Shown in pieces: positions 48,589 to 48,882 of a stretch of 64,000 nt of DNA (position 1 is the first letter of the stretch; every line of letters begins with the position of its first letter). Location: the NCBI RefSeq assembly GCF_900119695.1, contig NZ_LT632546.1, forward strand, positions 62,001 to 126,000, read 5' to 3'. The notes below the pieces were generated by a model, which saw nothing but the letters and a program-made list of their open reading frames with translations, searched no databases and was not told the origin of the DNA. Both the position numbers and the translations under genes were made by a program. Source of the DNA: Actinomyces urinae. GTDB taxonomy: Bacteria > Actinomycetota > Actinomycetes > Actinomycetales > Actinomycetaceae.

Positions 48589-48665
48589 TGGTACCCCCAG
48601 CCGGGCTCGAACCGGCACTCGGTCGATTTTAAGTCGACTGCCTCTACCAATTGGGCTATGGGGGC
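48589..48665 (-). tRNA. tRNA with anticodon UAA (nominal Leu), short variable loop
   Basis: Read on the minus strand the 77-base gene folds into a full cloverleaf: acceptor GCCCCCA with TGGGGGT (G1-U72 wobble), 3-bp D stem with the loop CAATTGGTAGA, a 5-bp anticodon stem GTCGA/TCGAC around CTTAAAA, variable loop CGAGT, T arm GCCGG-TTCGAGC-CCGGC, discriminator A, and an encoded CCA end. Anticodon UAA (plus-strand 48629-48631) reads UUA leucine codons. However, bacterial leucine tRNAs normally have a long variable arm, and this one has only five bases. The structure is convincing as a tRNA; its amino acid is uncertain. Confidence 0.9.
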
Positions 48666-48882
48666 TCGCGCCCATTCTACGGGCAAAATGCCTGGTTACA
48701 CCAAACGCGCCTGCCGGCCCCATTTCCAATAAACAACACGAAGCAGGTACAAACTGTTACAAATCGCACGGTTTCGCCCACATTTTAATCTTGTCCACTC
48801 ATGGGGCGGGCAGATTTATTAGAGTCGAGGATAAGGTGTGTCTCGCGCGAGGCACCTATTAGCTGAAAGAAAGGTGAGCCGT

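Follow-up and report, generated by a model that had tools for sequence, protein, structure and literature searches.

A class I tRNA-Leu(UAA), normal for its lineage, as the probable standard UUA reader of Actinomyces urinae

What does a tRNA with the anticodon UAA do in a bacterium when its variable loop is as short as that of a class I tRNA? The question is raised by a gene in the window, by which we mean the whole stretch of 64,000 nucleotides of Actinomyces urinae DNA that we analyzed. An earlier note on this stretch had started from the view that leucine tRNAs in bacteria belong to class II, with a long variable arm, and had offered three options: a specialized leucine tRNA, a tRNA charged with another amino acid, or a non-translational tRNA. 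Our analysis instead suggests, with a probability of about 92%, that the gene encodes a normal elongator tRNA-Leu on a class I body, which would read UUA, and by wobble also UUG, as leucine. The gene and its parts are as follows.

48589-48665, minus strand: class I tRNA-Leu(UAA) gene of 77 nt, CCA included in the gene (ARAGORN, Rfam tRNA model, sequence)
48617-48621, minus strand: variable loop of 5 nt, CGAGU, positions 44-48, the last base being U48 (Rfam match, alignment, sequence)
48629-48631, minus strand: anticodon UAA, with A37 and A38 on its 3' side (ARAGORN, alignment)
48640-48656, minus strand: D-arm with a leucine-type core (A14, A15, G18, G19, A20a), three base pairs and a C13-A22 mismatch (alignment)
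48592, minus strand: discriminator base A73 (alignment)
48589-48591, minus strand: CCA end, encoded (sequence)

The description of this gene as a UAA tRNA with a short class I variable loop and an encoded CCA end was borne out. ARAGORN reports tRNA-Leu(taa) at 48589-48665 on the minus strand as the sole tRNA of the 64-kb window, the earlier note having named no strand, and the Rfam tRNA model scores 60.7 bits over 48592-48665 (E 1.1e-10; cut-off 29). With 5 nt, the variable loop lies within the 4-5 nt of class I tRNAs and below the variable arm of at least 10 nt that defines class II, and the anticodon complements a leucine codon. The stems are fully paired except for C13-A22 in the D-arm, a position that is likewise unpaired in class II leucine tRNAs, and the acceptor stem is closed by G1-U72. 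Since the gene recurs within the genus, at 100% identity in one genome and at 89-99% in nine others, it is not a product of chance. A consensus scan directly upstream of the tRNA on the minus strand returned no promoter; by eye, we spotted TAGAAT at 48674-48679, with a weak -35 element at 19 nt.

We then asked whether the body of this tRNA is that of a leucine tRNA. The leucine determinants given for E. coli in the portion of a review of tRNA identity available to us are A73, A14, A15-U48, G18G19, and A20a, and the same portion describes U8-A14 as crucial to the Aquifex LeuRS (PMC9976931). All of these, U8-A14 included, are present in the UAA tRNA, the rules being those of E. coli and Aquifex rather than of an actinobacterial LeuRS. 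Within the genome, the combination of A14, A15, U48, A73, and A22 with a 13-22 mismatch occurs in 5/5 leucine tRNAs and in 0/41 others, a count that covers the 46 of 48 unique tRNAs that were parsed (a tRNA-Phe and one tRNA-Arg are left out). Outside this genome, among the parseable tRNAs of all loci up to L260 (the scope of our similarity comparisons as well), the same set is found in 150/151 class I YAA tRNAs, in 23/25 class II YAA tRNAs, and, among about 120 non-leucine tRNAs, in 2 (one Gln and one Glu, at other loci); for many of the compared sequences, A14, A15, G18, G19, and A20a were partly dictated by the patterns used to collect them. U48 and A73, neither of which is forced by the search patterns, are present in 115/115 unique class I sequences. 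Class I and class II YAA leucine tRNAs differ in having A9, C12, C13, and G23 versus G9, G12, G13, and C23, and the variable region is 5 nt here versus 12-17 nt in the compared class II set. The genome has one LeuRS gene above the cut-off, of bacterial type (868 bits, joined, versus 548.4). This single enzyme would charge the class I UAA tRNA through A73, A14, A15-U48, G18G19, and A20a, and, since no element read by LeuRS would then need the long arm, the arm could be lost and the two classes could be interchangeable for each anticodon.

A side observation concerns the sole tRNA-Phe of the genome (L054; G000:C3:1003350-1003423, outside the window), which has A at position 54 of the T-loop, where T is normally invariant. 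Across 41 genomes of the family, A54 is present in 34 of 35 matched tRNA-Phe genes and T54 in one (G023), with 6 genomes giving no match.

That leucine tRNAs of bacteria belong to class II, as the earlier note had presumed, is not true of this phylum. Across 197 genomes of the class, the UAA tRNA is class I in 105, class II in 29, and of both classes in 0, so that 134 genomes have a recognized UAA tRNA; for CAA, the corresponding numbers are 25, 37, and 0, and in 44 of the 197 genomes no UUR tRNA was caught by either the class I or the class II pattern. These pattern lists were sorted by eye, and 9 rows and 15 rows were dropped as chance matches that are not tRNA-like. Because both forms are never present for one anticodon and mixed sets exist, the class I and class II forms replace each other anticodon by anticodon; we do not take Fisher tests on this exclusivity as proof, as they ignore relatedness. 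According to the earlier note, many ordinary actinobacteria carrying the same tRNA with proven leucine charging would make it normal for the phylum. The sharing is observed (105/134 genomes with a recognized UAA tRNA); as to the charging, no published measurement for a class I tRNA-Leu was found in the literature searched.

Class I tRNA-Leu(UAA) is normal for the lineage. In the family of A. urinae, 69 of 81 genomes were listed, and of these, 29 have class I tRNAs for both UAA and CAA, 35 combine class I UAA with class II CAA, 4 (one genus) combine class II UAA with class I CAA, one is partly visible, and none has class II tRNAs for both anticodons; this list was also sorted by eye, about a dozen rows that are not tRNA-like and an odd 38-base row from G576 being set aside. 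By DNA similarity, the gene has a match in 77/99 relatives, the weakest of which may be other tRNAs. Among the matches listed, the class I form is found in Mycobacterium, Nocardia, Rhodococcus, Gordonia, Corynebacterium, and Bifidobacterium, and also in Microbacterium, Micromonospora, Amycolatopsis, and Streptosporangium.

We also observed a reversed arrangement. Four genomes of genus g4 in the same family (G013, G047, G555, and G572) have class II UAA and class I CAA tRNAs, and one of them, G013, is the only family genome (of 61) without a DNA match to the gene. The class II UAA tRNA of this genus resembles, by eye, the class II CAA tRNA of its relatives, which suggests that one isoacceptor took over the anticodon of another. 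Three Streptomyces-like genomes (G247, G387, and G491; family f21, genus g66) likewise have a class II tRNA for UAA and a class I tRNA for CAA.

The short form is not confined to this phylum. A record scan gave at least 118 stretches with the pattern, of which 80 were listed, and we read loci L077-L186, those 80 included; by record title, 8/80 listed records belong to other phyla and one more is unassigned. Several of these are tRNA arrays, and two of the arrays, in L122 (Elusimicrobia) and L167 (Cylindrospermum), have the short form in each of their five leucine tRNAs. In L127, the class I UAA gene comes after tRNA-Gly and tRNA-Cys, and in L151 it comes after tRNA-Cys; both loci, like L123 and L182, are metagenome bins that could be misassigned. 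Class I YAA tRNAs are present in 79/80 viral fragments, which were selected by that pattern and represent 80 of 120 stretches, and short CUN tRNA-Leu forms are also present among these fragments. Citrobacter phage Moogle (L253) has short tRNA-Leu genes for UAG, CAA, and UAA, and a short UAA tRNA is also present in Mycobacterium phage Kykar and Rhizobium phage RHph_I1_18.

Long arms persist elsewhere in some of these sets. Tyr tRNAs in both arrays and the Ser tRNA in L167 keep the long arm while the five leucine tRNAs are without it, and in Moogle, an enterobacterial phage, the three short-armed leucine tRNAs stand beside a long-armed tRNA-Ser.

Where the short form came from can be approached through similarity. 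Outside the variable loop and the anticodon, the mean identity of class I YAA tRNAs is 0.65 to class II YAA tRNA-Leu, 0.59 to tRNA-Lys, and 0.59 to class I CUN tRNA-Leu, and for the acceptor and T-arm it is 0.71 to class II YAA tRNA-Leu versus 0.59 to tRNA-Lys, the reference sets being unequal in size. Our preferred reading is arm loss from a class II tRNA-Leu, in which positions 9, 12, 13, and 23 would also have changed; less firmly, the resulting form may have spread partly through phages and tRNA arrays. A tree of YAA tRNAs (61 columns) did not recover a single class I clade and gives no firm origin; its largest class I clade holds 38/60 class I YAA rows and one other row, with a local support of 0.96.

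We consider it unlikely that a class I leucine tRNA arose instead from another class I tRNA, such as tRNA-Lys, through an anticodon change and a one-base D-arm insertion with no arm loss. The tRNA-Lys(CUU) of this genome does have A14, A15, U48, A73, and the linear D-arm string AATTGGCAGAGC, and tRNA-Lys is the closest non-leucine isotype. However, the highest mean identity, overall and in the acceptor and T-arm, is to class II YAA tRNA-Leu, and class I UAA genes sit in a Gly-Cys-Leu cluster (L127) and a Cys-Leu cluster (L151). Such a cluster is also the place of the class II leuZ in E. coli. A broader proposal is that the compact class I tRNA-Leu is a mobile, interchangeable form, spread by phages and tRNA arrays and displacing the class II form in cellular genomes one anticodon at a time, perhaps because nucleases or toxins that cleave the long arm find no target in it; we regard this as speculative and rather doubtful.

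What the tRNA does in A. urinae depends on which other tRNAs could read UUA. The genome (G000; 1,946,898 bases, 3 contigs, 99.75% complete) has 49 tRNAs (Rfam model; anticodons via ARAGORN). Of its leucine tRNAs, CAG, GAG, and UAG are class II (84-89 nt), whereas UAA and CAA are class I. The earlier note had proposed looking for a normal class II tRNA-Leu(UAA) elsewhere in the genome. None was found: a pattern that captures both classes, allowing 14 to 40 nt from anticodon to T-loop, matches only the class I UAA and CAA genes. Therefore, in a genome without a class II reader of UUA or UUG, these two class I tRNAs must read every UUR codon.

The codons in question are in regular use. In the 40 open reading frames of the window that reach 200 aa or more (GC 54.7%), UUA accounts for 73/16155 codons and UUG for 289/16155, and mfd is among the frames with UUA. 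A link to a rare, regulatory UUA codon, as the earlier note had suggested, is thus unsupported. UUA is not rare and confined to auxiliary genes, as for bldA, and since it is used 73 times in 40 frames, a Streptomyces-type switch is inapplicable. It is therefore highly improbable that the tRNA is a specialized or regulatory leucine tRNA like Streptomyces bldA, or that it is used outside translation. The UAA anticodon in an actinobacterial host would fit such a role, but only one other tRNA of the genome reads UUR codons, and in the Streptomyces-like genomes sampled (family f21, genus g66) the UAA tRNAs are class II. A non-translational role would further expect the codon to be covered by another tRNA, and there is no other UAA or class II UUR tRNA; such a role is contradicted because UUA is in use and the UAA tRNA alone reads it.

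To read the meaning of the codons, we aligned the Mfd encoded in the window with 27 homologues from genomes picked for having class II UUR tRNAs, counting only residues not encoded by UUR codons. The share of leucine is 72% of 60 aligned residues at the 3 UUA codons, 51% of 360 at the 18 UUG codons, and 51% of 2152 at the 101 CUN codons. Columns 707, 896, and 996 have leucine in 22/22, 23/23, and 24/24 residues, respectively. Five UUG columns are dominated by other residues, namely Ile (346, 822, and 921), Ala (1074), and Phe/Tyr (82), which we take for ordinary substitutions. Within this one protein, which has 21 UUR codons and just 3 UUA, the alignment indicates that UUR codons mean leucine in A. 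urinae. That UUA and UUG are recoded, with the UAA tRNA carrying a different amino acid, is the least probable reading of all: the class I body and an anticodon that has A35 and A36 in common with tRNA-Phe, whose synthetase reads the anticodon, speak for it, but UUR falls at leucine positions of Mfd just as CUN does, the complete leucine identity set is absent from the 41 other parsed tRNAs of the genome, and class I is never found beside class II of the same anticodon in the 197 genomes.

Altogether, one part of the three options is retained. The gene probably encodes a leucine tRNA, but not a specialized one, as it and the class I CAA tRNA are the only UUR readers; charging with another amino acid is opposed by the Mfd codon test and the full leucine identity set, and the non-translational option by its being the sole UUA reader. 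We infer the mechanism from the identity elements, the exclusivity of the two forms, and the codon meaning. In the class of Actinomycetota that was sampled, class I leucine tRNAs are the usual readers of UUA. They amount to a natural experiment on which elements of tRNA-Leu a LeuRS needs, and they bear on tRNA annotation by isotype models, on orthogonal tRNA engineering, and on how the split between class I and class II tRNAs evolved. A 2020 review of non-canonical tRNAs, in the portion available to us, places tRNA-Leu in class II (PMC7609411). We found no description of a bacterial or phage class I tRNA-Leu in the openly accessible papers searched, and specialists may know of one.

Several known systems can be compared with this tRNA. 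The canonical class II tRNA-Leu(UAA) and tRNA-Leu(CAA) are represented by leuZ and leuX of E. coli and bldA of Streptomyces. They share with the class I form the anticodons, A14, A15-U48, G18G19, A20a, A22 with the 13-22 mismatch, and A73, and the two forms are mutually exclusive in each genome; they differ in the 5-nt variable region (versus 12-17 nt) and in A9, C12, C13, and G23 (versus G9, G12, G13, and C23). Animal mitochondrial tRNA-Leu(UUR) also lacks a long arm and, as stated in the available part of the identity review cited above, takes its identity from A73 and A14 (PMC9976931). It likewise reads UUR as leucine; however, it is organellar and has a weak anticodon branch, whereas the A. 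urinae tRNA is bacterial and forms a regular cloverleaf. A mutated tRNA-Met with a leucine anticodon also has no long arm, but, unlike the UAA tRNA, it is recent, of very low abundance, possibly a silenced pseudogene, and without a leucine body. The class I tRNA-Leu of phages and tRNA arrays (Citrobacter phage Moogle and Cylindrospermum) has an equally short variable loop and, in many cases, also the UAGCCCAA..GGcAGAGGC D-arm; these short forms also cover the CUN anticodons (UAG, CAG, and GAG), whereas the CUN tRNAs of A. urinae are class II.
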